Origin: Parvularcula bermudensis HTCC2503
Lineage (GTDB): Bacteria > Pseudomonadota > Alphaproteobacteria > Caulobacterales > Parvularculaceae
Direction of reading: 5' to 3'
Assembly: GCF_000152825.2 (NCBI RefSeq)
Contig: NC_014414.1
Span: 2,480,001 to 2,544,000, forward strand
Length of the DNA stretch: 64,000 nt
Each line of letters opens with the position of its first letter. Position 1 is the stretch's first letter. Below, in pieces: positions 1,863 to 31,279 of the stretch. A program made the translations under genes and the position numbers. The notes beneath the pieces were generated by a model, which had not been told where the DNA came from, made no database searches, and worked only from the letters and a program-made list of their open reading frames with translations.

Positions 1863-3158
1863 ATGGACGGGAGCGATATCGCCACCTATCGGCCTGCATG
1901 GGCTTCATACTGGAAGGCATGGCTCGCGGTCGCCGCGCTAGCCGCAAGCGCATATGCTTTCCCGCAGGTCAGGGGTGCTTATCTGGAAACACCAGCACAA
2001 CTTCAGGAAATCGCGACGTTAGTAAGCCTTGCGCCAGCCTTGCTGATCATCGCGGGGATATTATTTCACCGCTACACGCGCGCTTACCAGATCGAAAGTG
2101 GGCGGCGGCTGCGCACGACCATCGGCTTTATCGCCCGCGACCGCCGCGAGTTTCTGATATCCGACAAAATCCAGACTGACCTGAAGCAGACCGTGCTCAG
2201 CCGCTTGCTTGGTTACGGCACCTTGCGTTTCTGGACTGGGGACGACCAAAGCGGCCAAAGCTGGGTGAACGTCGCCGCCCCGAACCGGCTGGAAGCCGAG
2301 ATCAAGGTACTGGCGCTGAATACAGACGACGCTGCGGGCAAGCCCTCGAGAAACGCCGTGAGCGCACGAACAGAAAAACCCAATTCACGGATAAATCCGC
2401 CCGATCCCGCCACCCCGCCGCTCCCCCATACGCCGGCAGGGACGATATTCGCCGATCGCGCGATCGTACTGACCCGTTTTCACCCCTCCCTCATGCGCCA
2501 CATCGGCGGTGAATTTAAATCCGCCGTTGAACCACAGCAATTTGTAGCCAAAGGCGAACCCTTGCTCACGCTGATACTGATGACGGAAGATGAAACGCTG
2601 TTTGGCAGCGGCAAGTTCGCCGATGTCGTCATTCCGGCCCCCGTATCCGGGCTCGTCCTGAGGCGAAGCCACGTCGCCAGGCCTTACTATGACCAGTCGC
2701 CGCCGGACCCGGCAGACGAGATGCGCACCACCTTATTGCCGGTCGAAGGCGAGCCAGTGGAGAACGGCGTCTTCATCTATGGTGCATTGTGCGATGCGAT
2801 ATGGAAACACCGCGATTTCCTATTCCGGCGCCAGAGAAAACTGAAGGAAATTGCAAAACACAGCCCTGGCTCTGCGCAATGGGTCGCCACATGGGCCGAC
2901 GATACAACCATACGCAAAGCCCTTGATGAATTACTGATCCAGCCTTGTGATGAAATTCCCGCACGCCCAGCATTTGACGACTATCTTTGCGAGGCGTGGA
3001 TCAAGCGACCGCATCTGCGCGATTTCCTTGCTCCTCTCGTCGATGAGACAACACTTAGAAAGGTGAATACCAACTACAAATTGGAGGAACAGCAGATGAT
3101 CGAAGAGGCGATCCGTACCCATCGCACGACACTCGAAAAGCTTGCCGAGAATGACTGA
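1863..3158 (+). CDS. bPH2-like membrane protein with lipoyl-like C-terminal domain
   Basis: The 431-residue protein has two membrane segments (about 17-35 and 50-70), then a region resembling a bacterial PH-like (bPH_2/YdbS-type) domain (about 72-140: RYTRAYQIESGRRLRT ... GYGTLRFWTGDD). The first 140 residues match the N-terminus of the protein at 6784-8091 in order and spacing (RPAWxSYW, HRYTxAYxIExGRxLR, GTxxFWTGDD). The rest differs: about residues 190-270 have a V-x-K-G-E-P-L-L ... APVSGLVL pattern that recalls a lipoyl/biotinyl hammerhead fold, without a clear modifiable lysine, then a helical charged tail. It is convergent with the VWA gene at 3206. Function unknown; a membrane-bound sensor or effector is inference. 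Confidence 0.7.
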   Translation: MDGSDIATYRPAWASYWKAWLAVAALAASAYAFPQVRGAYLETPAQLQEIATLVSLAPALLIIAGILFHRYTRAYQIESGRRLRTTIGFIARDRREFLISDKIQTDLKQTVLSRLLGYGTLRFWTGDDQSGQSWVNVAAPNRLEAEIKVLALNTDDAAGKPSRNAVSARTEKPNSRINPPDPATPPLPHTPAGTIFADRAIVLTRFHPSLMRHIGGEFKSAVEPQQFVAKGEPLLTLILMTEDETLFGSGKFADVVIPAPVSGLVLRRSHVARPYYDQSPPDPADEMRTTLLPVEGEPVENGVFIYGALCDAIWKHRDFLFRRQRKLKEIAKHSPGSAQWVATWADDTTIRKALDELLIQPCDEIPARPAFDDYLCEAWIKRPHLRDFLAPLVDETTLRKVNTNYKLEEQQMIEEAIRTHRTTLEKLAEND

Positions 3159-3205
3159 TTTCCGTCTGCCAGTCTGTGGACAATTGCGATAAGGCGCATC
3201 GACGC

Positions 3206-4552
3206 TCAGACATTGAGGATGATGAATGTGCCGTATTCCGGCGCAACTGGCGTCCCGTAGTGTTCCCGGATCGCGAACCAGACAACGTCATAAGGCGGCG
3301 GCTCGGCGGGATAGCGAATGGCCATGTCGGAGAGTACGATCACACGTTCGGTGTCCGGGTCTTCCGACAGCCGGTCGAAGGCGGCCGTGAGGTCGCTCCC
3401 GCCATATCCCCAGACTTCGAAACTTTCGAGTCCGTCAATATCAACAGTTTCGTCAGCGGCTACATCATCCGATGCCTGAATGATCCGCACCTGCGACACA
3501 CCGGCGGCCTTGGCCGATGCCTTGATCAGCGACAGGAGCCGCGGCAGCACCCCGGTCATCGAGCCCGATGTATCGAGGATCAGGTTGAGCGCCCATCCCT
3601 CGTGCCGCCGGCCCGGCAAGACAATATCCTGCCGCGTGCCCTGCCGGCGCGAGGCCCGGCGATAGGTCCTGACCTTCGGGGCGGTCATGTCGATCCCGCT
3701 CTGCAGGGCAAGTTCGACCGGTATCCGGTCATTCGTCGCGATAATATCAAGCGTCGCGGTCAAATGCGGATAGGTAAAATCCGGATGGCGGTACCGCAGG
3801 GCGGAGGTGACAACGGCATGCGTGCTGAGCGCGGCATCTGCTGCCAGCCGCAATGCCTCCGCACGAGCCGCGACGGCATCACCGGCCGATCCTCCATCTG
3901 AGATCAACGGGACCGCGATCACCGGCACAGTGATGGACAGGCGCCTGAGATCTTCTTCCGTCAGGATATCACCCGGGCAGTCCGCTGGCGCGTCATCGCC
4001 GGAGGAGGCCTCCACAGGGGCGAGATGGGTTCCGCGCAGCGCCTCTTCGAACGGTGTTGGCGTCCGCTGATCGGGTCTGCCGGCCTCGGCATCCCAGACC
4101 GACCGGCGCGCAGGCGAAAGGATGTTGCCATCCTTCAGCCACCGCACCAGCTCCTCGGCCGAGTGATTGTCAGCGTCGCCCAGCCACAGGCCATTCTTCG
4201 GCGGCATGATGCCCAGCTCATCCGTCAGTATCCTGTTGATGATCCAGTCATGCGCGACATTGACATGCCACGCATCATCCGCCCCCGCGCGCGCATGGCT
4301 TTGCAGGACGAGGTGCCACAATTCATGGGACATGACATAGATCGCCTCCGGCCCGGACAGCGACAGGAACCAGTCCGGATTAACGAACAGGCAGCCATCG
4401 GCGGTAATGCCGGCCGTCGGGATGCGGGGTTCGACATGGATCACCACTATATCGGCAAGGTCGCCCAGATAGGGCTGGAGATTGCGGACATTGTTCAGTG
4501 CGCGCTGCGCATACGCCTGTGCCAGCTTCAGAGTGTCCGCCGCCGCGTTCAT
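3206..4552 (-). CDS. Metallopeptidase-like/VWA domain protein (DUF2201 type)
   Basis: The 448-residue protein combines an N-terminal zinc-metallopeptidase-like region with HELWH at residues 76-80 and a C-terminal von Willebrand A-like domain with the MIDAS signature DTSGSM at 327-332. This is the layout of the DUF2201 (putative metallopeptidase/VWA-like) family, which is usually encoded beside a MoxR ATPase. Its ATG overlaps the MoxR stop by four bases (ATGA), so the two are translationally coupled. By analogy with other MoxR-VWA couples (RavA-ViaA, NorQ-NorD, CoxD-CoxE) it probably acts as the target-binding partner of the ATPase in remodelling or metal insertion. Whether HExxH is catalytic is unknown. 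Confidence 0.85.
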   Translation of the reverse strand: MNAAADTLKLAQAYAQRALNNVRNLQPYLGDLADIVVIHVEPRIPTAGITADGCLFVNPDWFLSLSGPEAIYVMSHELWHLVLQSHARAGADDAWHVNVAHDWIINRILTDELGIMPPKNGLWLGDADNHSAEELVRWLKDGNILSPARRSVWDAEAGRPDQRTPTPFEEALRGTHLAPVEASSGDDAPADCPGDILTEEDLRRLSITVPVIAVPLISDGGSAGDAVAARAEALRLAADAALSTHAVVTSALRYRHPDFTYPHLTATLDIIATNDRIPVELALQSGIDMTAPKVRTYRRASRRQGTRQDIVLPGRRHEGWALNLILDTSGSMTGVLPRLLSLIKASAKAAGVSQVRIIQASDDVAADETVDIDGLESFEVWGYGGSDLTAAFDRLSEDPDTERVIVLSDMAIRYPAEPPPYDVVWFAIREHYGTPVAPEYGTFIILNV

Positions 4553-5565
4553 CTCAGGCCCGTGGCCTCCTTGAGGGATGACAACAGGCTGTCGCTCGCG
4601 CCCAGATCCCCCCAGATGCGGACCAGGCCGACCAGCAGCGAGAACCTTACCTCGCCCGGTGCGGCGGACAGGAAGTGCTCGATCTCATCGGGAGAGAATT
4701 CGCTGAGGCCGCCTTCTGCTGCCATCTTCCGGATGATGCGGATGATGAACCATTTCTTCGCAGGCTCAACAGGCAAGAGCGACGGATCGCGGATATAGGC
4801 GGATGCGGGCTTCAGGTCTTCCATGCCGCTCTCCGCCAGCCCGCAAAACAGGCTCGCATCCCCGGCGCTGACCTTGCCATAAGCGAGCGCGCGGCGGGTC
4901 TGTTCCAGCGGCAGGCCTGCGCGTTCGGTAAGGTCCAGGCTGGCCGACAGCGACGCCCAGGCCCGCGGCGTGGAAAACGGAACAGGCTCGGTCGACGCCG
5001 GACGCATCAGCGCATCAGGCACTGCGGCGATAAAGGCAATAATCTCTGAACGGATATTGTTGGCACGCGCCCAGCTGATCCATTCCTCATTGTCTGCGCG
5101 CACATGCAGGATGAGGACGCGATTGACGAGCGCGGACGAGATGGTGCGCACCAGCGCACGGTCTTCCGCCCGGTTGCCGGCCGCGACAACCCATGTGCCT
5201 TTCGGCAGGTCGAACTCGCCGATCCGCCGCTCCAGCAGCAAGGCGTAGAATGCCTTCTGCACATCCGGGCCGGCGGCCGGCAATTCATCGAGAAAGAGAC
5301 AGAATGGCTCCCCGCTCTCAGGAAGCAGGATGCGCGGCGGGCAGAAGACGGAGCGCTCGCCATCGATCTTCGGAACCCCGCTGACATCTTCCGGCGCGAT
5401 CTGCGTGCCCAGAAGCGAGCGGCATTCGAGCCCCGCCTCTGCGGCGACGCTGCGCACGATGTCGGATTTTCCAAGGCCAGGCGATGACAGCAGGAGAACG
5501 CTTTCATCCGCCGCAAGCGCCTTGATGATGTCCTTGGCCTGAGAGAGCGTCACGGTCTCATTCAT
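4549..5565 (-). CDS. MoxR-family AAA+ ATPase
   Basis: The 338-residue AAA+ ATPase has Walker A SSPGLGKSD (27-35), Walker B CLFLDEL (89-95) and a sensor-1-like AAGN. Length and motifs fit the MoxR group of chaperone-like ATPases that work with VWA proteins. I place the start at ATG 5565 (MNETVTLSQ); the open frame extends far upstream, but that part is the shadow of the 364-residue gene. The start overlaps the end of that gene by 8 bases and the stop overlaps the VWA start by 4, giving a tightly coupled three-gene unit. Expected to hydrolyse ATP to remodel a target chosen by its VWA partner; the target is not known. Confidence 0.88.
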   Translation of the reverse strand: MNETVTLSQAKDIIKALAADESVLLLSSPGLGKSDIVRSVAAEAGLECRSLLGTQIAPEDVSGVPKIDGERSVFCPPRILLPESGEPFCLFLDELPAAGPDVQKAFYALLLERRIGEFDLPKGTWVVAAGNRAEDRALVRTISSALVNRVLILHVRADNEEWISWARANNIRSEIIAFIAAVPDALMRPASTEPVPFSTPRAWASLSASLDLTERAGLPLEQTRRALAYGKVSAGDASLFCGLAESGMEDLKPASAYIRDPSLLPVEPAKKWFIIRIIRKMAAEGGLSEFSPDEIEHFLSAAPGEVRFSLLVGLVRIWGDLGASDSLLSSLKEATGLR

Positions 5566-6652
5566 GGTTTCCCCCCTTGGATTTCCAGTCGTCGAAGACC
5601 TCCGGCGGACGGTAGGCCTTGTCCCATATATCAAGGGCGCTGAGCCCTCTGATTGTGTCGCGCTGGCGCGCGCGCAACGCGCTGATCGCCTCCTGTCCGC
5701 GAACAGGACGGGTGCCCTGAACCCTCGACAGAAAAAACGCCGCGACGGGATGAGAGGCATCTTCCAGAATCGTCGCCTTTCCATCGCCTTCGACGACGCC
5801 AAGCGCAAGATCAACCAGATGATACAAATCATCAAAACACGGCAAAGGGTGAGCGCGCGGCGCAATGATACCGGGCGGACAGCCCACGCGCTCGCCTGCT
5901 GCGCAAGTCGCCGTCAGAAGCAGGGACAGGAACCAGAAAGCGTCCGCATCGAACGGCATGATCGCACGCGCAACTGCCTTGTCACCAGTCGCCATGAGAT
6001 GACCAAGCGCCCGCGCCAGACGTGCCTGCGCGCAGGCGACCGCATAAGCAACGGCGATTTCCGGCTCTTTCAGTATCCAGCTGTATTTGCCAACGGCGCC
6101 GATGTCGCGCGCGGCGATTATTTTCCGGTAAGCCCGGCAAGCCGGCCCCGCACGTCCTTCCATGTTCACATGGATATAGTTGCAGGTGATGATCCGCGTG
6201 ATTACGGAAAGGCCTTCCTCTGAACTGTAGAGAACCTGCGAAACGGCGTCGATCACGGCTTCCGTATCTGCGCGTGCAAGACGGTTTGCAATTTCACCGA
6301 TTGTCTCCGGAGCGCCGTCGCTGGAAGAAAAGCGCCCAAACGCCTGCAACGCCCTAGAGGCATCCTCCCGCTGCGCAGCAAGACGCGCGACCAGATCATC
6401 AATAAGGTTGTTTTGCCCCGTAGGAATACCCGATTTCGGTCGAGGTTTACGCTTCTCAAATTCATCGATTTCGACGTCAACGTCTTCCTCGTTGTCCGAA
6501 GCGGCGTGATCGCGTTCCCAGTATTCATCATAGCCACTGTCGTAGAACTCGCTAACGTCGCAATAGTCATTATTAGACAGCCAGTAGATGTCCTCGTTAT
6601 TCAGCTTCTGGTTCCGCCACAGATAGCTGATGAGTTCATCGATCACGCGCAC
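5558..6652 (-). CDS. Hypothetical protein, first gene of the MoxR-VWA unit (364 aa)
   Basis: I do not recognise this family. The N-terminus (about residues 1-75) is acidic and rich in D, E, Y and N, including a run of SDNEEDVDVEIDEFEKR; the rest is helical with several cysteines. No signal peptide is seen; some hydrophobic stretches (WFLSLLLTATCAAG, about 245) are short. It ends 8 bases inside the MoxR gene, so its product is likely made in step with MoxR and the VWA protein and may be the third partner or the substrate adaptor of that pair. This is an inference from gene order only. Confidence 0.7.
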   Translation of the reverse strand: MRVIDELISYLWRNQKLNNEDIYWLSNNDYCDVSEFYDSGYDEYWERDHAASDNEEDVDVEIDEFEKRKPRPKSGIPTGQNNLIDDLVARLAAQREDASRALQAFGRFSSSDGAPETIGEIANRLARADTEAVIDAVSQVLYSSEEGLSVITRIITCNYIHVNMEGRAGPACRAYRKIIAARDIGAVGKYSWILKEPEIAVAYAVACAQARLARALGHLMATGDKAVARAIMPFDADAFWFLSLLLTATCAAGERVGCPPGIIAPRAHPLPCFDDLYHLVDLALGVVEGDGKATILEDASHPVAAFFLSRVQGTRPVRGQEAISALRARQRDTIRGLSALDIWDKAYRPPEVFDDWKSKGGNHE

Positions 6653-6783
6653 GGCAAAAATCTCCAGACTGGATGAATGCGGTCCAATCCTGCCCGCGGT
6701 AAGGCATACCTATTTCGTCAATACCGGATAAGTGAACTGACAAATCCTGTTATGACCTTCCGGAATCCTCTCGCACAGTTTCA

Positions 6784-8091
6784 TCAACTCACTTCCTCAT
6801 CGATTGTCTTTGGAGCATGAAGTTCACCTCCAGTCAGGCGACGGACGAACATCACACCCATCGCGCCTCCTGTCTTGTGGTCTCCGGCCGGCATGGAGCC
6901 ATCATAGGCCCAGGCAAGCCCGCCCCCTAGACCTGTCGCCGTCCACAACCGAACGCCAGTCCCGAACAGTTCGGGGTACAGGCGTTCGAAATGTGCCTTG
7001 CTTGCCCCGATTTTCCACCACCAGTCAGATTCCTCATCTGCGGGCAGTCTTGTTTCAAGATACGTATCCTCGCCAGCATGCTTATGAAGGAATGGGGCGA
7101 ACCTGCTGAGCTCTCCGGCTGTAGGCAGGCGCCAGTCCTTGTAGCCGGCCGCATCGATGATGCATTTGCCTTTTTTGTAACCGTTTTCGAATGCAGAAGC
7201 TGCGCGTTTTTCATGCCCCATATAGGCGAAAGTGCCGCCAATATTGTAACCGACAGCTTCCCCACACCCGAACAGGTCTACAGCGTCCCCCCAGCGCATG
7301 AGGATCGGCTCGCCTGAAAAACCTTGTCCTGTCCAGACCATGCCCCAAGGCGCTCGCAGCCACATGAGTCCGCTGGCACTATGAGAGACGGTCCCGTCAT
7401 CATTGTCTACATAATCACCAAATGGCGTCGTGATACGCTTGGCCACCATGTCCTTGAGTTCCTTGTACTCGGCTGCTCTCCCGAAATGCGTGTGGCGCGT
7501 TGACTTTGCTTCCTTCAGCGTTGGAGGAGCGGGCATGCGGGACACATCTTGAGACAGCGCATCGGAATGTGTCGTAGCGCGGTCACCGGACGCTTCCGAT
7601 ACACTGGATTTCAGCTCATCCAGAAAGGCAATAATGCGATCAGGATCGGGGGCGTTGCGCCATTCGAGCCGGCTGCGGTCATCGCCGGTCCAGAAAGCGA
7701 TCGTTCCATAGTTGAGGAGGCGTCCGGCAATTGTCTGCCCCATATCCGTCTGCACTTTGTCCGTCAGCGGAAATTCCCGTTTCACACGGGAAATGAAGCC
7801 GGCAAGCAGGCGCAGCTTGCGTCCATTCTCGATCTCATAGGCGTGAGTATAGCGGTGATAGGCGACGCCCGCGACGATCGGCAGTAGCGCGATGGCAAGC
7901 CCGAGGCCCGAAAGTTCCACAGGAATGCCAAGGCGCTGCGCCAGTCCATCGAACAGTTCACGCTGCACGAACCAGAGACCAGTCACCACCACAGCCGCAA
8001 GGCCGCTCCGCCAATAGCTGGTCCATGCGGGACGCATCCGAAGAACTGTCTGTCCCTTACGGGATAGCTGTTTGAACTGACCTCGCTGCAC
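6784..8091 (-). CDS. bPH2-like membrane protein with C-terminal DUF1566 (Lcl C-terminal) domain
   Basis: The N-terminal ~150 residues repeat the plan of the protein at 1863: RPAWTSYW, two membrane segments, then a bPH2-like stretch (HRYTHAYEIENGRKLR ... NYGTIAFWTGDD). After a linker, residues ~230-425 carry the marks of DUF1566: SHSASGLMWLRAP, WGDAVDLF, DWRLPTAGELSRFAP and a closing FVRRLTGG. DUF1566 is predicted to adopt a C-type-lectin/formylglycine-enzyme-like fold and is usually a surface or binding domain. The frame opens at GTG 8091, but ATG 8037 (MRPAWTSYW) is also possible. It lies between the histidine kinase and the MoxR unit on the same strand. Confidence 0.72.
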   Translation of the reverse strand: MQRGQFKQLSRKGQTVLRMRPAWTSYWRSGLAAVVVTGLWFVQRELFDGLAQRLGIPVELSGLGLAIALLPIVAGVAYHRYTHAYEIENGRKLRLLAGFISRVKREFPLTDKVQTDMGQTIAGRLLNYGTIAFWTGDDRSRLEWRNAPDPDRIIAFLDELKSSVSEASGDRATTHSDALSQDVSRMPAPPTLKEAKSTRHTHFGRAAEYKELKDMVAKRITTPFGDYVDNDDGTVSHSASGLMWLRAPWGMVWTGQGFSGEPILMRWGDAVDLFGCGEAVGYNIGGTFAYMGHEKRAASAFENGYKKGKCIIDAAGYKDWRLPTAGELSRFAPFLHKHAGEDTYLETRLPADEESDWWWKIGASKAHFERLYPELFGTGVRLWTATGLGGGLAWAYDGSMPAGDHKTGGAMGVMFVRRLTGGELHAPKTIDEEVS

Positions 8092-8198
8092 GTTACGATG
8101 CCCCCTTCACGCGAGAATACTAATATGCCGTGCGGAACTGTTTCCCCACGCTTTCCTGTATCGGCGGTTAGGCTGGATGACGCAACTTACCAGACGGG

Positions 8199-9542
8199 TT
8201 ATGACGGCCGCACGAAAGCGATGGACACTTTCAGGCCCGGATTCGTGTTGGCGAGCGTCAGCCGCGCCCCATGGCGGATCGCAACGGCCTGAACATGCCT
8301 CAGCCCGAATCCATGACTGCCGGGGCCAGCCTTGCGGCCCGCGCCGGCGAGTTCGGCAATGCTGGTCGTCGCAACGCCCGGCCCTTCATCCTGAACGATC
8401 ACGCTGAAATGCCGGTCAGTCGCGGCCAGCACCAGCGAAACCGCCGATCCTTCCGGGGCAAATTTCGCGGCATTGGACAGAAGATTCGTGATGGCACTGG
8501 CGAGCAGCGGCGCAGATGCTATGACTTCCATCCGGTCATCCGACGGCAGCTGCAATCCGAACCGGATATCCCGGTCTTCGAACGTATCGGCATAGAGCGT
8601 TGCCACCGAGGCCGCTGTTTCCGCGAGCGAAACGGGCTGCATGGCATAGCCCGGGGTCGCCTCGATCTTCGCCAGTTCCAGAATGTGCGAGACGAGGTCC
8701 AGCAATTGTTCAGCATCCTGCGCTGCGCCGGTATCGCCCGCAGCGAGGAACCGCTCCCGCATGATCGAGACGGCATGGTTTAGCTCGTGCGCTGCGACCT
8801 GGCTATAGGAATCCAGCCCCCGCATCAGGCGCGCCACTTCAGCCAGCGCCTCATTCACATTTGCCCCCAGAGTCGACAGCTCATCGCCTTCAGGGGTGAG
8901 GAAGCCGGGCTCCACACGCGCGGCAATCTCGCCGGTGCGGACGCGGTCGAAAACGCGGTTGAACGCCCGGACGCGGCGCTGGTAGCGGCGATTCAGGAAG
9001 ATGAAGAGCAATGTGCTGACGACACCAAGACACAGGACGGCCCCTACAAGGACCGGCACATAATTCTGAATCAGAGCCTGCCGCGCCGTCAGCCGGCGGC
9101 CGACGAGCAGGAAAAACCCATTATCGACAGCTTCTATCCGCGAGAGCATGGCCCCCTCGCCCAGGCCAAGCTCGGCAGCGTCCATTTCGGTCCATCCCTC
9201 TTCCAGGGGCGTCTCAGAGGGCCAGGACGTTGCATTTCCGGCAACAACACTCCGATCAGACCGGACGAGCATGTAGACGGACTGTGCATCCTCACCGCCA
9301 TCATCGAACAGGCGCTGGCCAAGCGATGCGGTCAGGCTTGCCACGGGCGGCAGGACATCCCGGTCCTGCATCCGCTCTGTCAGCAAGGCGATATCGCGTC
9401 GTATTTCCTCGCGGAGTGTCCGGTCGACCGCGCCATCAATTGCCGCCGTTGCCGCAAGGCCGGCAATCACGGCAAGGCCGAGTGTCACGACCAGATTGAT
9501 CAGAAGGGATATCTGGAAGGGGGACCGAAAACTCCGGATCAA
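8199..9542 (-). CDS. Sensor histidine kinase
   Basis: A 447-residue membrane histidine kinase. A first membrane segment (about 12-34) and a second (about 161-183) bracket a ~125-residue periplasmic sensor; a HAMP-like region follows, then the H-box with HELNHAV (His252), N-box NLLSNAAKF, G1 DEGPGV and G2 GSHGFGLRHV. The likely partner is the OmpR-type regulator encoded divergently at 10507. It follows the lipoprotein gene at 9638 on the same strand, so the lipoprotein could feed the sensor domain. The signal is unknown. Confidence 0.9.
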   Translation of the reverse strand: MIRSFRSPFQISLLINLVVTLGLAVIAGLAATAAIDGAVDRTLREEIRRDIALLTERMQDRDVLPPVASLTASLGQRLFDDGGEDAQSVYMLVRSDRSVVAGNATSWPSETPLEEGWTEMDAAELGLGEGAMLSRIEAVDNGFFLLVGRRLTARQALIQNYVPVLVGAVLCLGVVSTLLFIFLNRRYQRRVRAFNRVFDRVRTGEIAARVEPGFLTPEGDELSTLGANVNEALAEVARLMRGLDSYSQVAAHELNHAVSIMRERFLAAGDTGAAQDAEQLLDLVSHILELAKIEATPGYAMQPVSLAETAASVATLYADTFEDRDIRFGLQLPSDDRMEVIASAPLLASAITNLLSNAAKFAPEGSAVSLVLAATDRHFSVIVQDEGPGVATTSIAELAGAGRKAGPGSHGFGLRHVQAVAIRHGARLTLANTNPGLKVSIAFVRPS

Positions 9543-22083: not shown

Positions 22084-22141
22084 ACTAATCCATTGATTTT
22101 ATTGAAGCACGACTAATGACACGCACTCAGTAAAAACAATA

Positions 22142-22172
22142 AGACCCTGAAATCGTTACGATTTCAGGGTCT
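22142..22172. terminator. Strong hairpin (14-bp perfect stem)
   Basis: Arms AGACCCTGAAATCG and CGATTTCAGGGTCT pair perfectly around a TTA loop. It lies between the truncated gene (ending leftwards) and the 3' end of the toxin gene. The stem is a candidate terminator, though it has no T-run on either side. Confidence 0.6.
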
Positions 22173-22176
22173 CTAT

Positions 22177-22196
22177 GGGTGCGGTAGGGCGCACCC
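22177..22196. terminator. Second hairpin (7-bp GC stem)
   Basis: GGGTGCG and CGCACCC pair around GTAGGG, four bases after the 14-bp hairpin. Together they form a tandem structure downstream of the toxin gene, which ends at 22266 on the minus strand. Confidence 0.5.
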
Positions 22197-22265
22197 AACA
22201 AAAGAGTAAGCTAGTAATTCCTTTTATTTTAGAGGGTTAGAGGTTTCCCTGCGAGCAACGATCAT

Positions 22266-23207
22266 TCAAAGTTCCGGCAGGCGCCGGCTGATGCGTGCCA
22301 GAATATCGTCAAAGAGTGCAGGCTCCCTGTAGTAAAGCGCTCGTGACTTCGCATAAGCGTCCGCGTACGCCTTTCGCGTTTCTGCGTCGCTCAACAGAAA
22401 GGCTTCGTTCCTGGTGAGGTCCGGTTCATCTGCCTTGCGGAACCTTTTGGCCTTGTGGTCCTTGTACGCGTCTGTTCCGATGAACTCTTTCACTGAGGCG
22501 TCAGCGAGCAGGCAGTACACGTCATAATAGTGGCGCATGAAATTGACAGGCATGTCGCCGTCCGCCTGCTGCTTTCGGAATTTCGTTGAGATGGTCTGGA
22601 GCTTTTCGACAAAAGTATAGCCCGGCTCATAGCAAGGCACATCGACCGCGCGGGTGTCGGTCAGGTCTGCAATCCCACTCTCGACTGCAAGTTCGTAAGC
22701 CCAGGACGAAATCGTACATGGCCGGTTCGGCGCCACCTGGTCGAACCCGACTTCGAGCAGGATGCCTGCCTTCAGCCCTTCTGGCAGTGGATTCACCGAC
22801 TCATACTTCAATCGAATGCCTGCGCCGCGATAGTGGCGTGTGTCGTCGAACTCTTCGTCGCGGACCACTTCGATAATGCCAGGAATTTTGATGGCTTCGG
22901 CCAGACCGTTGAAGAATTCGAGACGCGCCTTTACCTGCGCAGGCTTGTTGTGGTTTGGGCCATACTGGAGGTCGGTCTCTGGGTGGATCAGGATGTCGAT
23001 GTCTTCCGAAAAACGGTCGATGAGGCCGTATCCCTTTGACAGCGAAGTTCCGCCTTTCAGCTCAAACTTATAGTCAAGCTGCTGCAGTCCCCAGAGGCAG
23101 TGCATCAACCAGTAGTCTTTTTCGATGAGCCCCGGGTCGATGGTGTTGTTTCGCGCAGCAACAGCGATGAGGTCGGCAAAATCAGGCAGTGCGTGCAGGA
23201 GGGTCAC
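22266..23207 (-). CDS. AbiEii/AbiGii-type nucleotidyltransferase toxin
   Basis: The 313-residue protein shows the AbiEii marks: EKDYWLMHCL (29-38), GGTSLSKGYG (52-61) and the nucleotidyltransferase acidic pair in SEDIDILI (67-74). In type IV AbiE systems this NTP-transferase toxin is held in check by a separately folded antitoxin that does not bind it. The start overlaps the antitoxin stop as ATGA, so the two are coupled. The toxin frame is intact, although the upstream antitoxin gene is split. Likely role: phage defence by abortive infection or element maintenance. Confidence 0.88.
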   Translation of the reverse strand: MTLLHALPDFADLIAVAARNNTIDPGLIEKDYWLMHCLWGLQQLDYKFELKGGTSLSKGYGLIDRFSEDIDILIHPETDLQYGPNHNKPAQVKARLEFFNGLAEAIKIPGIIEVVRDEEFDDTRHYRGAGIRLKYESVNPLPEGLKAGILLEVGFDQVAPNRPCTISSWAYELAVESGIADLTDTRAVDVPCYEPGYTFVEKLQTISTKFRKQQADGDMPVNFMRHYYDVYCLLADASVKEFIGTDAYKDHKAKRFRKADEPDLTRNEAFLLSDAETRKAYADAYAKSRALYYREPALFDDILARISRRLPEL

Positions 23208-23647
23208 GCGGCGGTTGCCTGATCAGGGTTCAATACAGGCTTGAGGAGCCTTGCAGCCCGCGCCGATCCGAAATCCTTCACCGCACGTGACAGTCGCGCG
23301 CGGTCCATACGTCGCGCACGCCTAAGTGCCTTGGGAAGCACTGCTGCCTTTTCCTCGGGAAGCCGATCGAGGTTGTGCAACAGATCCACCAGGAGGAATT
23401 CTTCGCTGAGGTTTGAAGGAACAGAGGTCCGCATGCGGAAGTCATAGCGTCGGCCATCCAGCTCGAAATGGCCGTGCCGTTTGCGATTATAAACTACCGG
23501 CTCATTGTAGAGCTGCGTCGTTCCCAATTCGAGGCTGTTATAGGCGTTTGGCGAAACCATAAGAAACCGGTCATCCCCCAGGAATGACTCAACCAGCTTC
23601 TCCGGCTTGGCGGGTGCCTGCCCGAACCGAGTTTTCTTCGGAGCCAT
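23204..23647 (-). CDS. AbiEi-type antitoxin, C-terminal part (frameshifted from N-terminal part)
   Basis: This frame starts ATG GCT CCG AAG and encodes APKKTRFGQAP, the segment that in DUF6088/AbiEi-like antitoxins follows directly after GLYYR/GLYM of the winged-helix domain. The N-terminal part is in another frame (23494-23802), and deletion of one 5-bp repeat unit would fuse them as GLYMAPKKTR. The ATG lies within the repeat, so the antitoxin domain may still be made alone. AbiEi C-terminal domains are reported as the part needed for antitoxic action, so the toxin may still be controlled. The stop overlaps the toxin start. Confidence 0.75.
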   Translation of the reverse strand: MAPKKTRFGQAPAKPEKLVESFLGDDRFLMVSPNAYNSLELGTTQLYNEPVVYNRKRHGHFELDGRRYDFRMRTSVPSNLSEEFLLVDLLHNLDRLPEEKAAVLPKALRRARRMDRARLSRAVKDFGSARAARLLKPVLNPDQATAA

Positions 23648-23802
23648 ATCATATAGAGCCCTGCCCCAACCTTTTCGAGGCGTCCTTCGTCAAGCAGCTG
23701 TCCAACATGTCGATCGACAGCGTTTGACCAGGTCGCAAGCTCCTTGCGCCGGTACACCTGTCCGGGGCGCAATTTCCTTTTTAGTTTTGCAAGCGCTGTC
23801 AT
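23494..23802 (-). CDS. AbiEi-type antitoxin, N-terminal winged-helix part (out of frame)
   Basis: The first ~50 residues (MTALAKLKRKLRPGQVYRR ... GRLEKVGAGLYM) form the usual AbiEi/DUF6088 DNA-binding winged helix, ending with the GLY motif. After this the frame becomes out-of-frame sequence because of the 5-bp tandem repeat at 23645-23654. In intact systems this domain represses the operon. The truncated product may still bind DNA, or may be non-functional. Confidence 0.7.
   Translation of the reverse strand: MTALAKLKRKLRPGQVYRRKELATWSNAVDRHVGQLLDEGRLEKVGAGLYMIWLRRKLGSGRHPPSRRSWLSHSWGMTGFLWFRQTPITASNWERRSSTMSR
23645..23654. repeat. 5-bp tandem duplication (CATAT)2 breaking the antitoxin gene
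   Basis: The plus strand reads CATATCATAT (minus ATATGATATG). With one unit the antitoxin reads through in frame; with two it splits. Short tandem repeats of this kind arise and revert by slipped-strand mispairing. Confidence 0.75.
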
Positions 23803-24393
23803 GTTCTGTCTCCATCACCCGCAATATAGAGGTCATGCTCCATACTATGCAACATTTCTTATTAAAACGTCATGCACAACAAAGACAATAAATACTCTCG
23901 ACACAGGTGCAAGATATTGATTTTACGATGTTTTATAGAATGAGGAAGCAGGTCTCTTAATCACCGGAATGGCACAATCCGTACTAAACAAAAGGGTCTG
24001 GGGTCCAATTTATTTATGAATTGAAGCTCGTACGCAGCGAAACCAGGTTGCCCTTTCGCCAAGAGCCGACAATGGATTCCGAACCGCGAGTGACGCGCCC
24101 AGTAATCGTGCTTGAAATTAAATTAATTCAACGCACTATGGCACTCAAAACTTCGCTTGTTGTGCAGATTGTTTGCAATTTGTAGTGCAAACTGTGGTGC
24201 AGCCCTTTCGTGTTGTCAAAGTTCGACGCTGCCTATCAACGACATTCACATCGCTAACATGATTTGCTGGCCGTTCAAATTCGCGCTGGAGCGTAGCCAT
24301 GCAACTTTTCGCTCGGGACTGACCCGCGGGTCTGGGTTGATCCTGCTCCGTTACGACAAACCTTGAGTGCTCAGAGGTTCTTTCTTGATTTAA
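23803..24393. other. Intergenic stretch between toxin-antitoxin genes and copper island
   Basis: About 590 AT-richer bases with no credible gene. The promoter of the leftward antitoxin-toxin unit should lie at its left end. I see short repeats of TTTGCA/TGCAAA type near 24170-24200 but no clear site. Confidence 0.4.
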
Positions 24394-24806: not shown

Positions 24807-24864
24807 TTTCGTGCGTCGCTGCATTAGCAGCCCGATTGCATAAATTCACCTCATGGAGACGATT

Positions 24865-26706
24865 ATGTTGAACAGACGACGTATGTTGCAGACGGTGCTC
24901 GGCACCGGCGCAACCTTGGGGGCAAGCAGCCTCCTGCCCGCTTGGGCAAAATCTTCCAGCAACGGAAACCTTGGTGTGCCCTCACTTTCGGGCACGCGCT
25001 TCGACCTCGAAATCGGGCAGTTCCCGGTCAGGCTCAACGGCAAAGTCGGTATGGCAACCGGAATCAATGGCACACTTCCCGGTCCGCTCTTGCGGTTGCG
25101 CGAGGGCGATGACGTTACAATGAACGTCACCAACCGGCTTGCCGAAGACACTTCGATCCATTGGCACGGACTGCTTGTCCCCTTCCATATGGACGGCGTG
25201 CCGGGCGTCAGCTTCCCGGGCATCAAACCGGGCGAAACGTTCAAATATCAGTTCAAGGTGCCGCAAAATGGCACTTACTGGTATCACTCCCATTCTGGTC
25301 TGCAGGAACAACTCGGCCATTACGGTCCGATCGTCATAGATCCGGCAGGTACAGACCCAGTGGCTTATGACCGGGAATATGTGCTCGTCCTCAGCGACTG
25401 GAGTTTCACGCATCCGCACCGGATCTTCGACAAGCTCAAGAAGAATGCCGAGAGCCTGAATTTCAACCGCCCGACCCTGTCGAACCCAACCGGACTTGGC
25501 GGCATGTGGGGGCAGATGCGAATGAGCCCGCGCGATCTCGCAGACGTGACCGGCGAAACCTACACCTACCTGATCAATGGCCATTCGACGGCCGATAATT
25601 TCAATATGGTCTTCCAGCCGGGCGAGCGGGTTCGCCTGCGCATTATCAACGCCTCCGCCATGACCCTCTTCAATGTCCGCCTCCCGGGCTTGCCGATGAC
25701 GGTGGTCCAGGCCGACGGTCTGAATGTCCAGCCGGTTGAGACCGACGAGTTCCAGATGGGCGTGGCCGAGACGTATGATGTCATCATCGCGCCGACCGAA
25801 GCGCGCGCCTACGCCTTTGTTGCCGAATCGATCGACCGCTCCGGCCAGGCCGTCGCCACGCTCGGCCCGCGTGCCGGTATGCGGGTCGATGCGCCTGCGC
25901 TTCGAGCTGTGCCGATGCTGACCATGCGGGACATGGGAATGGCCCATGGAGACATGGCGGGCATGTCAGGCATGGGGAGAATGGATCATGGTCCGGACAC
26001 CGCGACGGCCGGGGACGACATGAAAGGCCACGACATGGGTGCCATGTCGATGATGCCCGATCCTCATGGTCCGGCGGTCCAGCCCGTCAAGATTGAAGCA
26101 GATATAGAGCGCGGCCCCGGTGTCGCAAAAGTATCAGGCATGACGATGAGCCGCTTGGGCGAACCCGGTCTCGGGCTTGATGATGTCCCCCACCGCACGC
26201 TCACCTACAACCAGCTTCGCGCGCTCGACATGAATGAGGACCATCGCCCGCCTGGCCGCGAAATTGTCATTCATCTGACGTCGAACATGGAACGCTACAT
26301 GTGGTCGTTCGACGGTGTAAAATTCTCCGAGGTAACCGAGTCAATCAAGTTCTACGAGGGTGAACGTGTTCGCCTGACGCTCGTAAACGATACAATGATG
26401 CCACACCCGATCCATTTGCACGGCATGTTTTTCGATCTCGTGAATGGCGGTGGTCATCACATGCCGCGCAAGCACACAGTAACGGTCAAGCCTGCAGACA
26501 GGGTCAGCGTCGACATCACCGCAGAACATGTCGGTGACTGGGCGTTCCACTGCCATCTGCTTTACCACATGCACGCTGGCATGATGCAGGTCGTCAGCGT
26601 CATTCCGCCAGCAGACGATACGACACCAGCTGAAAAAATGCCGGCAGGTCAGATGAATATGCCCATGGACCATCACGGCATGAACCATGGGGAGGGAAAA
26701 TCATGA
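24865..26706 (+). CDS. copA: Copper-resistance multicopper oxidase (CopA/PcoA type)
   Basis: A periplasmic oxidase thought to convert Cu(I) to less toxic Cu(II). I start at ATG 24865 because GGAGA lies just upstream; ATG 24853 has no such site. A twin-arginine signal (NRRRMLQTVLG) fits export of a folded copper enzyme. The copper motifs are in order: HWHG, WYHSHSG, HPIHLHGM and HCHLLYHMHAGM. A Met/His/Asp-rich insert (MGMAHGDMAGMSGMG and following, about residues 355-405) is typical of CopA copper loading. Its stop overlaps copB by four bases. Confidence 0.93.
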   Translation: MLNRRRMLQTVLGTGATLGASSLLPAWAKSSSNGNLGVPSLSGTRFDLEIGQFPVRLNGKVGMATGINGTLPGPLLRLREGDDVTMNVTNRLAEDTSIHWHGLLVPFHMDGVPGVSFPGIKPGETFKYQFKVPQNGTYWYHSHSGLQEQLGHYGPIVIDPAGTDPVAYDREYVLVLSDWSFTHPHRIFDKLKKNAESLNFNRPTLSNPTGLGGMWGQMRMSPRDLADVTGETYTYLINGHSTADNFNMVFQPGERVRLRIINASAMTLFNVRLPGLPMTVVQADGLNVQPVETDEFQMGVAETYDVIIAPTEARAYAFVAESIDRSGQAVATLGPRAGMRVDAPALRAVPMLTMRDMGMAHGDMAGMSGMGRMDHGPDTATAGDDMKGHDMGAMSMMPDPHGPAVQPVKIEADIERGPGVAKVSGMTMSRLGEPGLGLDDVPHRTLTYNQLRALDMNEDHRPPGREIVIHLTSNMERYMWSFDGVKFSEVTESIKFYEGERVRLTLVNDTMMPHPIHLHGMFFDLVNGGGHHMPRKHTVTVKPADRVSVDITAEHVGDWAFHCHLLYHMHAGMMQVVSVIPPADDTTPAEKMPAGQMNMPMDHHGMNHGEGKS

Positions 26707-27506
26707 TGAAACCGAATTTGGCAGCCCCTCTCCTCCTCGGCTTCGCGCTCTACGCGACCGGCAGCGCGTTCGCGGAAGACACAAATCAAACCCCGCCCTG
26801 GGATCAGGCCGACGCCATCTACGGCGAGGATGCAATGGCGGACGCTCGCCGGGACGTTCTTGCGGAAGGCGGAGACCAGAAGAGCTTCTACATCCTCTTC
26901 AACCAGCTCGAGGCTCAGATGTCTGACGAGGGCGACAGTTTGTACTGGAACGGACAGGCTTGGTATGGGGGCGATATCAACAAGCTCTGGTTCAAGAGCG
27001 AGGGCCGCGCCTCTCTGAATGGAGAGGGCGTGGATGATGCCGAGATCCAGGCGCTCTATTCCCGCGCGGTTGCGCCTTTCTGGAATGTTCAGGCGGGCGT
27101 TCGCTACGACATCGAACCGGATAGTCTCGCGCATGGGGTCGTCGCACTGAATGGTCTGGCGCCCTACTGGTTCGAAGTCGACGCTTCCGCCTTTCTCAGT
27201 GAAAAAGGCGATGTAACGGCCCGCATCGAGGCTGAATATGAGTTGCTCCTGACCCAGCGGTTGATCTTGCAGCCTCGGATCGAAGCAAATCTTTCCGCGC
27301 AGGACATACCGGAAAGGGAAACGGGCGCGGGACTTAGCACACTCGATGCCGGCTTGCGGCTTCGTTATGAAATCAGGAGGGAGTTTGCGCCTTATGTCGG
27401 CGTCGAATGGCAAAGCGCCTTCGGTGAGACACGCGACATGATCAAAGCCGCAGGCGGTGAAGGCGACGATATCGTCTTTCTCGTGGGCCTGCGGACCTGG
27501 TATTAG
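26703..27506 (+). CDS. copB: Copper resistance protein B (outer membrane)
   Basis: A 267-residue protein with signal peptide (cleaved near SAFAED) and the CopB beta-barrel features: YWNGQAWYGGDINKLWFKSE, repeated amphipathic strands, and a C-terminal aromatic end (LRTWY) usual for outer-membrane barrels. The Met-rich N-terminal repeats of some CopB proteins are absent. It overlaps copA (ATGATG), so the two are coupled. Probably binds or passes copper at the outer membrane together with the oxidase. Confidence 0.9.
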   Translation: MMKPNLAAPLLLGFALYATGSAFAEDTNQTPPWDQADAIYGEDAMADARRDVLAEGGDQKSFYILFNQLEAQMSDEGDSLYWNGQAWYGGDINKLWFKSEGRASLNGEGVDDAEIQALYSRAVAPFWNVQAGVRYDIEPDSLAHGVVALNGLAPYWFEVDASAFLSEKGDVTARIEAEYELLLTQRLILQPRIEANLSAQDIPERETGAGLSTLDAGLRLRYEIRREFAPYVGVEWQSAFGETRDMIKAAGGEGDDIVFLVGLRTWY

Positions 27507-27515
27507 GAGAACAAA

Positions 27516-28610
27516 ATGGGCGGTTTCATAGAACCCAATATTCACCCCGTGCTGGTGCATTTTACCTATGCCCTCGGCACATCTGCAGCCTTGGCATATG
27601 TGGCTGGCCTCCTCGTACCTGCAGGCCGCTGGCGCGACAGCCTTCGACCGGCCGCCGACTGGATGCTGGCATTGGCTGCCTTGGCGGTTCTGGCCACCAT
27701 CGCGGCCGGGTTTCAGGCCTATTACAGCGTTGCTCACGATGCGCCGTCCCATGAAGCGATGACAACCCATCGCAACTGGGCTGTTCCCACGGGCCTCGCA
27801 TTACTGGCCCTCGCCGGTTGGCGCTGGCTGAGAAGGGCCTCGTCGCCCGGCCCGGTATTTGCGATCAGTGCCCTGGCGGTGGCAGGTCTTTTGACGGTTA
27901 CAGCGTGGTGGGGAGGCACAATTGTCTACAAGTACGGACTTGGCGTGCAGACCCTTCCTGAAGCCAGCGGGCCAGGCCACGATCATGATCATGGCGGCGG
28001 AGCCGGTCATGGCGACCAAGGCACCGTAAATTCAACAGACGATCATCAAGACGCTCACGGAGCGCCTCCATCCGACACGATGGATGGATCATCGGCGAGC
28101 GGCGATGGACATGATCACGACCATACCGACGGTGCAGCTGATCGAGAAATGTCAGGCACGGTCCCCGCCGGACACGACAACTCCGACGGCCATCACGACA
28201 CCAAACCGGTCTCGACTGATGAACAGGCGATCCTGGATATCATGGCCGCGATCGAAACCGGTTGGGAGACCGGCGATGGCGAACTGTTCCGACAGAACTT
28301 TCTCGACTGGTCAGGCGCCCGGTACTTTGAGTCAGGCGGCGAGAATACTGGCCTGCTCGACCTTGTCGAAAATCATGTCGAGCCCGAAAAAGATACCATT
28401 CCGGATCTCGAACTCGACTTCTCGAATATAGACGTGCAATTCGAGGGAAGTGACTTTGCATGGGCTGTCGCGGACACAGCGATCAGTGGAACGTTCAGCT
28501 CCAGTGGCGAACGCCTGGAGCGTATCGGGAAACAAACGGTGCTGTTCCGCAAGGTCGCCGGCACCTGGCAGGTCATTCACACGCACTCGTCCTCCCGTGC
28601 GCCGCGATAA
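27516..28610 (+). CDS. DUF2231-type membrane protein fused to His-rich linker and NTF2-like domain
   Basis: Residues 1-150 form four membrane segments with DUF2231 marks (NIHPVLVHFTYALG, THRNWAVPTG, WWGGTIVYKYG). Residues ~150-235 are a low-complexity His/Asp/Gly-rich linker (GHDHDHGGGAGHGDQG and similar) likely to bind metal in the periplasm. Residues ~240-364 look like a SnoaL/NTF2-fold domain (ILDIMAAIETGWETGDGELF ... VLFRKVAGTWQVIHTHSS). Nine bases after copB with ribosome site AGGAG, so part of the same operon. The combination is unusual; a metal-handling membrane role is inferred from context. Confidence 0.75.
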   Translation: MGGFIEPNIHPVLVHFTYALGTSAALAYVAGLLVPAGRWRDSLRPAADWMLALAALAVLATIAAGFQAYYSVAHDAPSHEAMTTHRNWAVPTGLALLALAGWRWLRRASSPGPVFAISALAVAGLLTVTAWWGGTIVYKYGLGVQTLPEASGPGHDHDHGGGAGHGDQGTVNSTDDHQDAHGAPPSDTMDGSSASGDGHDHDHTDGAADREMSGTVPAGHDNSDGHHDTKPVSTDEQAILDIMAAIETGWETGDGELFRQNFLDWSGARYFESGGENTGLLDLVENHVEPEKDTIPDLELDFSNIDVQFEGSDFAWAVADTAISGTFSSSGERLERIGKQTVLFRKVAGTWQVIHTHSSSRAPR

Positions 28611-28679
28611 GGAGGAAATCCAACCTGCCGCTTGCCGGCCAAGTTGAAATGCAACCAGCAAGCGGCGATGATATTGAAT

Positions 28680-28696
28680 ATACCCCCTAGGGGTAT
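28680..28696. promoter_or_regulatory. CsoR-type palindromic operator 2
   Basis: ATACCCCCTAGGGGTAT is a perfect 17-base palindrome round CTA, ahead of the DUF5676/P-type ATPase transcription unit. It shares the ACCC...GGGGT core of the other two sites. Confidence 0.7.
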
Positions 28697-28745
28697 TATA
28701 CTATGACTATCCTACTTGCTCTTGCCTGGACCGCTGGAGGTCAGA

Positions 28746-29000
28746 ATGAAAATTATCGCCGTCGGACACTCGCTGTCTCTGTTCCTGCTCGTCAGTTATT
28801 TGCTGTGCGTCGGCTGGGGGAGTGTGACGCCGTCCAGCCTTCACATGCATCCAGCATGGCAGGATCTACTGCCCGGATTTGAGTTTGGAACGCTGACCGG
28901 TTTTCTGATCGGCCTTGTCGAGAGCTATCTCTATGGCTGGTACATCGCCCTTCTGTTCGTTCCCTTGTTCAACTTCTTCAACCGAAACAGCAGCGCATAA
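28746..29000 (+). CDS. DUF5676 family membrane protein
   Basis: An 84-residue protein with two membrane segments and DUF5676 features (SYLLCVGWGSVTP, HPAWQDLLPGFEF, GLVESYLYGWYIALLFVP). GGAGG lies 5 bases before ATG 28746, which fixes the start. The family is commonly found in metal-resistance clusters; its job is not known. It precedes the P-type ATPase by 53 bases and shares operator 2 with it. Confidence 0.8.
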   Translation: MKIIAVGHSLSLFLLVSYLLCVGWGSVTPSSLHMHPAWQDLLPGFEFGTLTGFLIGLVESYLYGWYIALLFVPLFNFFNRNSSA

Positions 29001-29053
29001 AAGTGATGCATACCCTCATCCTGTGAAGCACTCCTGCTGAAAGAGTCAGAGCC

Positions 29054-31279
29054 ATGACCAACGACACTTCTCACGCCCATTCCGGACATGCGTGCCATCA
29101 CAACGATCAGGCCGCTCCAGAGAAGCCCGATGATGCCTATGACAAGGTTCCGATCGGCTATGCCGGCACCGTCTGGACCTGTCCCATGCATCCGCAGGTA
29201 CGCGAAACTGCCAATACAGGCTGCCCGATCTGCGGCATGGCGCTCGAACCGGAAACGGTGACGGCCGAGCAGGATACCAGCGAACTGGATGACATGACGC
29301 GGCGCTTCTGGGTCGCCCTTGTCTTCTCGGCGCCACTGCTCGCCTTTGTCATGGGCGAAATGATTCCCGGCAGCCCGCTCAGGCACTGGATTGATCCGAC
29401 CTGGAGTGTCTGGCTTCAGGCCCTGATCGCGACTCCCGTTGTCGTTTGGGCCGGCTGGCCCTTCTTCGTGCGCGGCTGGCAATCCGTGAAGCGACGCAAC
29501 CTCAACATGTTCACCCTGATCGCGATGGGCGTCGGCGTGGCCTATATTTATTCCCTGGTCGCAACATTCGCGCCCGGCATATTTCCCGATTCATTCCGTG
29601 GGCATGGCGGCGCGGTAGCAGTCTACTACGAGGCGGCCGCCGTCATCGTTACGCTGGTTTTACTTGGCCAGGTGCTCGAACTGCGCGCGCGCAACGCCAC
29701 CTCAGGAGCCATTCGTGCACTGCTGGAGCTTGCCCCTGCTACTGCGCGCAGGATTGCTGACGATGGCAGCGAACAGGATGTCGATCTCGCGGATGTAAAG
29801 TCTGGCGACAAGCTGCGGGTCCGGCCAGGTGAGAAGATCCCGGTCGATGGCGAGGTCGTCGACGGCCATGGGTCGGTTGACGAGTCCATGGTCACCGGCG
29901 AGCCCCTGCCCGTCGAAAAAACTATTGGCGCACGTGTGACCGGAGGTACGGTCAACGGAACCGGTTCGCTGGTCATGAAGGCGACACATGTGGGCGAAGA
30001 CACGCTCTTGTCCCAGATTGTCCGAATGGTTGCCGCCGCTCAGCGGTCCCGAGCTCCAATCCAGCGGCTCGCTGATCTCGTCGCTGCCTGGTTCGTTCCG
30101 GCTGTTATTGGAATTGCAATCCTGACCTTTGTCGTGTGGGCCGTGTTCGGACCCGACCCGGCGATGGCTTTTGCGATCGTGAATGCCGTTGCCGTCCTGA
30201 TCATCGCATGTCCCTGTGCGCTAGGTCTGGCAACCCCGATGTCGATCATGGTCGGCACGGGCAAGGGCGCGTCCAACGGCATCCTGATCAAGAATGCTGA
30301 AGCGTTGGAGACGCTTGAGAAGGTCGATACGATCGTGGTCGACAAGACCGGGACGTTGACGCTCGGACGCCCCGAACTGGTACGCGTCCAGCCAGGCGAA
30401 GGCTTCGACGAAGCCTCGTTGCTTAGTCTCGTAGCCGCGGTGGAACGTTTGAGCGAGCACCCACTTGCCGACGCGATCGTGCGTGGCGCAAAAGGCAAGG
30501 GCGCGCCTCACAAGGATGCGCACGGATTTGAATCCGTCACTGGCGAAGGTGCGCAGGCAAGCGTCGACGGCCAAACCGTCGCCATCGGCAACAGAAAGAT
30601 GATGCAGCGGATCGGGGGCTGGTCTGACGACCTCGGGACACGCGCTGACCAGTACCGCACCGAAGGCCAGACGGTTATGTTCGCCGCCGTCGACGGAAAA
30701 CCGGCAGGCATTGTCTCTGTGGCGGACCCGATCAAGGAGACGACACCGGAAGCCATCAGACGTCTTCATGCCGAAGGGTTGAAGATTGTGATGTTGACAG
30801 GTGACAATGAGACGACAGCACGCGCGGTCGCCGACAAGGTCGGCATCGATGAGGTTCACGCCGACGTCTCGCCTGAAGACAAGCATCGGATCGTGTCCGA
30901 ACTCCAGAAGAACGGTGCCCGCGTGGCCATGTGCGGTGACGGCATAAATGATGCGCCCGCGCTCGCGCAGGCGGATGTCGGAATCGCGATGGGAACCGGA
31001 ACCGATGTGGCCATGGAGAGTGCCGGTGTGACGCTTGTGAAAGGCGATCTGATCGGGGTTGCAAAGGCCCGGGAGCTCAGCCACGCCACGATGCGCAACA
31101 TCCGCCAGAACCTGTTCTTCGCGTTCTTCTACAATACGCTTGGCGTGCCGGTTGCCGCTGGCATTCTGTATCCCTTCTTCGGCTTGTTACTGAGCCCGAT
31201 GATCGCGGCGGCCGCCATGAGTTTCAGCTCCGTATCTGTTATCGGTAACGCCTTGCGGCTGAGAACCCTTAAACTCTAA
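29054..31279 (+). CDS. Copper/heavy-metal translocating P1B-type ATPase
   Basis: The pump expels Cu(I) (or Ag(I)) from the cytoplasm to the periplasm using ATP. The 741 residues hold a His-rich start, a heavy-metal-binding domain with CPMHPQV ... CPICGM (about 41-65) in place of the usual ferredoxin-like HMA, an actuator TGEP loop, the CPC metal site (386-388), the phosphorylation motif DKTGT (Asp430), the HP motif (SEHPLAD) and [10 protein letters not shown]. Eight membrane helices fit the pattern. It is downstream of DUF5676 under operator 2. The same CPMHP/CPICGM domain occurs in the CusB-like adaptor at 37765. Confidence 0.94.

Follow-up and report, generated by a model that had tools for sequence, protein, structure and literature searches.

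In the AbiE systems that have been studied, antitoxin and toxin act without binding each other (PMC3985639). For AbiE of S. agalactiae, the C-terminal domain of the antitoxin alone was found to neutralise the toxin, and the full-length protein was needed for repression (PMC3985639). The operon described here lies on the minus strand of a 64,000-nucleotide stretch of the Parvularcula bermudensis HTCC2503 genome (referred to as the window). It shares with S. agalactiae AbiE the order of antitoxin then toxin, the 4-nt overlap of the two genes, a DUF1814/AbiEii nucleotidyltransferase toxin and an operator-like inverted element at the promoter. An N-terminal winged HTH followed by a C-terminal antitoxin domain is also shared, but only by the intact copies of the operon. 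Unlike in S. agalactiae, the antitoxin reading frame is broken in the window copy, the antitoxin is a divergent, DUF6088-like protein with 10–12% identity to 6Y8Q, and the inverted element does not have the 23-3-23 layout. Judged from its sequence, the window operon belongs to the type IV (AbiE-like) toxin-antitoxin operons, but as a broken copy.

The toxin gene (22266–23207, minus strand) is intact. It starts with GTG and encodes a 313-aa AbiEii nucleotidyltransferase with matches to Pfam AbiEii PF08843 (E=9e-36) and PADLOC AbiEii (E=1e-69). The GTG start and the antitoxin stop share 4 nt (GTGA, 23204–23207). Both the AbiEii/DUF1814 toxin and the bicistronic antitoxin-toxin order with overlap that define AbiE operons are present. 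The toxin protein is 100% identical to the toxins of nine other genomes. Directly past the toxin gene a terminator-like hairpin is found on the same strand (22141–22173), and no tRNA or Rfam family was detected in the region. The upstream region (23825–23880, minus strand) was read by eye and contains the operator-like element TGCATGAnTTTTTAATnAGAAnnnTTGCATA. This element overlaps a -35-like TTGCAT, which is followed by a -10-like TATATT (both by eye); a consensus promoter scan of the upstream region reported no promoter. The element is common to the window copy and an intact paralogous operon in the same genome, and it is recognisable in relatives with 65–79% antitoxin identity. The paralog's version is an inverted repeat with 18-nt arms that are 83% complementary. 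AbiE systems are further marked by AbiEi-bound operator repeats in the promoter and by a bacteriostatic toxin; we regard this conserved inverted element as a putative operator.

The antitoxin gene is frameshifted by a 5-bp tandem duplication at 23645–23654, where the minus strand reads GGGCTCTATATGATATGGCTCC, an ATATG/CATAT doublet. Two ATATG units are present in the window and one in the relatives. As a result the gene falls into two open reading frames, both on the minus strand: a 102-aa ORF1 (23494–23802) with the start of the antitoxin gene and a 147-aa ORF2 (23204–23647) with the remainder. The first ~50 codons of ORF1 are in the native frame and cover most of the winged HTH; ~52 out-of-frame residues follow before the stop at 23494. 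ORF2 covers what remains of the wing and, in full, the C-terminal (antitoxin) domain. Both halves match the PADLOC AbiEi model PDLC02234, ORF1 with residues 1–73 (model positions 1–71) and ORF2 with residues 1–139 (positions 51–189). Since two halves in different frames match one AbiEi model, the window copy has to be read as a broken and not as a complete AbiE operon: winged HTH and C-terminal domain are not part of one protein here, as they are in the paralog and in the relatives. The initial annotation had described an AbiE-type antitoxin split by a 5-bp tandem duplication beside an intact toxin, and the open reading frames and the PADLOC and Pfam matches agree with this. Its statement that a single unit gives a single frame is borne out by the relatives, in which one unit goes with an open 197-aa frame. 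As it had also pointed out, the second ATG lies within the repeat; ORF2 starts at this ATG (23647).

For the DUF6088-like branch, sequence searches of Pfam, NCBIfam and PDB gave no antitoxin family; an assignment came from PADLOC and from fold comparison. An AlphaFold2 model of an intact relative (mean pLDDT 85, pTM 0.70) consists of an N-terminal winged HTH and a subsequent C-terminal domain. In the fold comparison AbiEi 6Y8Q ranked first (Z 8.7, rmsd 6.6, 161 aligned residues), followed by Rv2827c (1ZEL, Z 7.1); the other fold matches, which mainly reflect coverage of the winged helix, were left out. On these matches we assign the antitoxin to the AbiEi type. The last strand of the wing is formed by residues 49–51 of the model, and the break falls inside this strand. 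According to the model, ORF1 lacks the end of the wing and the whole C-terminal domain, whereas ORF2 keeps all of the C-terminal domain.

The operon occurs in Henriciella, Hyphomonas, Aquisalinus and others, with 11 species at 99.0–99.2% DNA identity and further copies at 97.9–98.0% and 94.7%. Aquisalinus luteolus is a member of the same family as the window genome, which is thereby placed in or near Parvularculaceae. The initial annotation had named a two-unit arrangement in all relatives as evidence against its reading; in every relative checked at the duplication site there is just one unit and the antitoxin frame is open. A search of 398 genomes of the order gave 34 toxins at E<=1e-30, and by comparison of hit coordinates each of the 33 other than the window toxin has an intact adjacent antitoxin frame. 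A pattern search of 385 genomes of the class and 62 of the family found the two-unit form in the window only, and it was not found in viral contigs. A truncated relative in Brevundimonas vesicularis (L063) has lost the end of the antitoxin together with the toxin and so is no parallel. Apart from the insertion, the window differs from the common allele by eight bases, two of which were not found in any of nine relatives. One of them (23830) matches one of the two AbiE copies, the left one, in the genome G125, which leaves 23868 and the insertion as private to the window. Every codon of ORF2 is the same as in an intact relative (L036). This identity, together with that of the toxin in nine genomes, indicates that no decay has taken place since the break. 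With one unit and an open frame in all relatives checked, the duplication is, on sequence comparison, private to this genome and very recent.

The intact paralogous operon (G000:C1:2476809-2478340, L003) is located 25.5 kb from the window copy, ~1.5 kb beyond the window and so out of sight for the initial annotation. It has one repeat unit and a single open 197-aa antitoxin frame. Its toxin is 97% identical to that of the window copy and the C-terminal part of its antitoxin ~94%. Operon layout and operator-like element are shared between the two copies, but only the paralog has the single unit and the open frame. A third, distant AbiEii-like stretch lies in a 401-aa frame at G000:C1:1135282-1135461 (L068; 49% over 57 aa).

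Both operons belong to an island of which a 32-kb copy is present in G125 (JAAEZZ010000003.1), with two AbiE copies at equal spacing, both open. The alignment of the two islands comprises 31,982 columns at 99.5% identity and has two gaps only, one of which is the 5-bp duplication. Beside the operon (window 24853–31279) lies a copper-resistance cluster with a multicopper oxidase, CopB and a metal P-type ATPase. Over the operon and the adjacent copper genes, the G125 island and Henriciella, Hyphomonas and Aquisalinus show ~98–99% DNA identity, each with one unit and an intact antitoxin. The partly ~99% identity across genera indicates a recent transfer of the copper cluster, and the operon sits on a mobile, horizontally spread copper-resistance island. 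The 3' end of the toxin gene (window 22134–22177) is a recurrent homology edge in Henriciella, Hyphomonas and Aquisalinus, where the copper-gene side is common and the side past the toxin is not. This suggests that the edge is the end of a mobile module. The genes between the AbiE copies (window 1863–9542) have bPH_2, MoxR-like AAA, DUF2201/VWA-like and HATPase domains and possibly form a MoxR-VWA type conflict module.

Divergence within the island is concentrated at the AbiE copies; ~70% of the mismatches over the 32 kb fall in or adjoin the two AbiE operons. For a comparison of the copies we used L070 and L071 of G125, window 22185–23900 and L003 (6724–8440). The left and right copies of G125 do not differ over 535 bp at the 3' end of the toxin gene (100% identity), but across the upstream region and the early part of the antitoxin gene their identity is only 84.5–89.8%. 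This difference points to gene conversion between the copies; over time, such exchange could repair the broken allele or spread it.

A private mutation in otherwise undecayed surroundings is also what a sequencing or assembly error would look like, in which case the strain would truly have one unit and an intact gene, and a near-identical paralog in the same genome could confuse assembly. The genome, however, is a single contig of 2,902,643 bp with 99.99% completeness. Only two gaps in 32 kb relative to an independent assembly mean that indel errors are rare, which argues against an indel-rich assembly. Moreover, slippage typically produces mutations such as a 5-bp tandem duplication, which would be unusual as a base-calling error. 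Nor would a mix-up of the two copies generate two units, since the paralog differs in local sequence and has only one unit. We consider an error unlikely.

The initial annotation had further proposed that slippage of the CATAT repeat could act as a phase-variable on/off switch. A change in unit number does open or close the frame. Known pentamer switches, however, have many units, whereas there are just two here and no relative has more than one. A phase-variable repeat should stand out above chance and vary in unit number between strains; all relatives have one unit, and the 61 two-copy 5-bp tandems counted within the window compare with 60.6 expected, with no three-copy 5-bp tandem in the window. 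The repeat per se is thus unremarkable, and the actual finding is the frameshift relative to all relatives. We regard a switch as highly improbable; the locus is probably an ordinary recent mutation.

A different question is whether ORF2 would be translated. If ribosomes started at the second ATG, a C-terminal antitoxin alone would be made, so that antitoxicity would be kept and self-repression from the window copy lost. Because the gene is interrupted within the last wing strand of the DNA-binding domain and ORF2 contains the whole C-terminal domain, a stand-alone antitoxin domain is possible. In S. agalactiae AbiE such a domain is enough for antitoxicity, but isolated truncations were unstable there (PMC3985639). 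An SD-like stretch, GGGGCAGGG, precedes the ATGs of the repeat; its pairing with the anti-SD, at -8.1 kcal/mol, ranks among the operon's strongest. The stretch is positioned 6 nt before the first ATG, which is in the ORF1 frame, but 11 nt before the second. Some translation of ORF2 from the second ATG is possible. Across the family, however, SD-likeness before Met51 does not exceed the synonymous-codon null, and several relatives lack Met51, so the internal start is not a kept feature; the synonymous-codon test rules out a conserved internal start. Termination-coupled restart is unavailable, as the ORF1 stop (23494) is not near the second ATG, and no classical slippery heptamer for a -1 slip was seen at the junction. 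Of the earlier suggestion that the antitoxin domain is made without its DNA-binding part, the separation of the two domains by the break is retained and a conserved internal initiation is not. A functional split of this kind seems improbable to us. Its extension to a separation-of-function allele, with the window operon supplying a stand-alone antitoxin domain and the paralog repressing both operons in trans, is likewise improbable; if true, it would constitute a two-operon circuit with one repressor.

Based on these results we favor, with a probability of roughly 70%, a recent private loss of the full-length antitoxin/repressor that is probably tolerated through the intact paralog and a weaker coupling of the toxin. 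This reading builds on what is directly established: the frame is shifted, the change is recent and confined to this genome, the paralog is intact, both copies have the upstream element in common, and the antitoxin and toxin genes overlap. We propose the following course of events. Slippage would have doubled a 5-bp unit very recently and thereby cost the window copy its full-length antitoxin/repressor. Given the intact paralog and its matching operator-like upstream sequence, the window copy probably still receives repression and antitoxicity in trans: the near-identical antitoxin of the paralog would neutralise the window toxin, and by binding to the shared operator-like element it would repress the window operon. 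In addition, ribosomes that are out of frame would stop at 23494, 287 nt upstream. As the toxin start overlaps the antitoxin stop, these early-stopping ribosomes should give little coupled toxin translation, and less toxin would be delivered.

The finding leaves the knowledge of AbiE systems unchanged. Where a genome has two copies of a toxin-antitoxin operon, it may be less necessary for every antitoxin to stay intact, and the locus is a naturally occurring case in which cross-neutralisation between near-identical type IV pairs can be tested.
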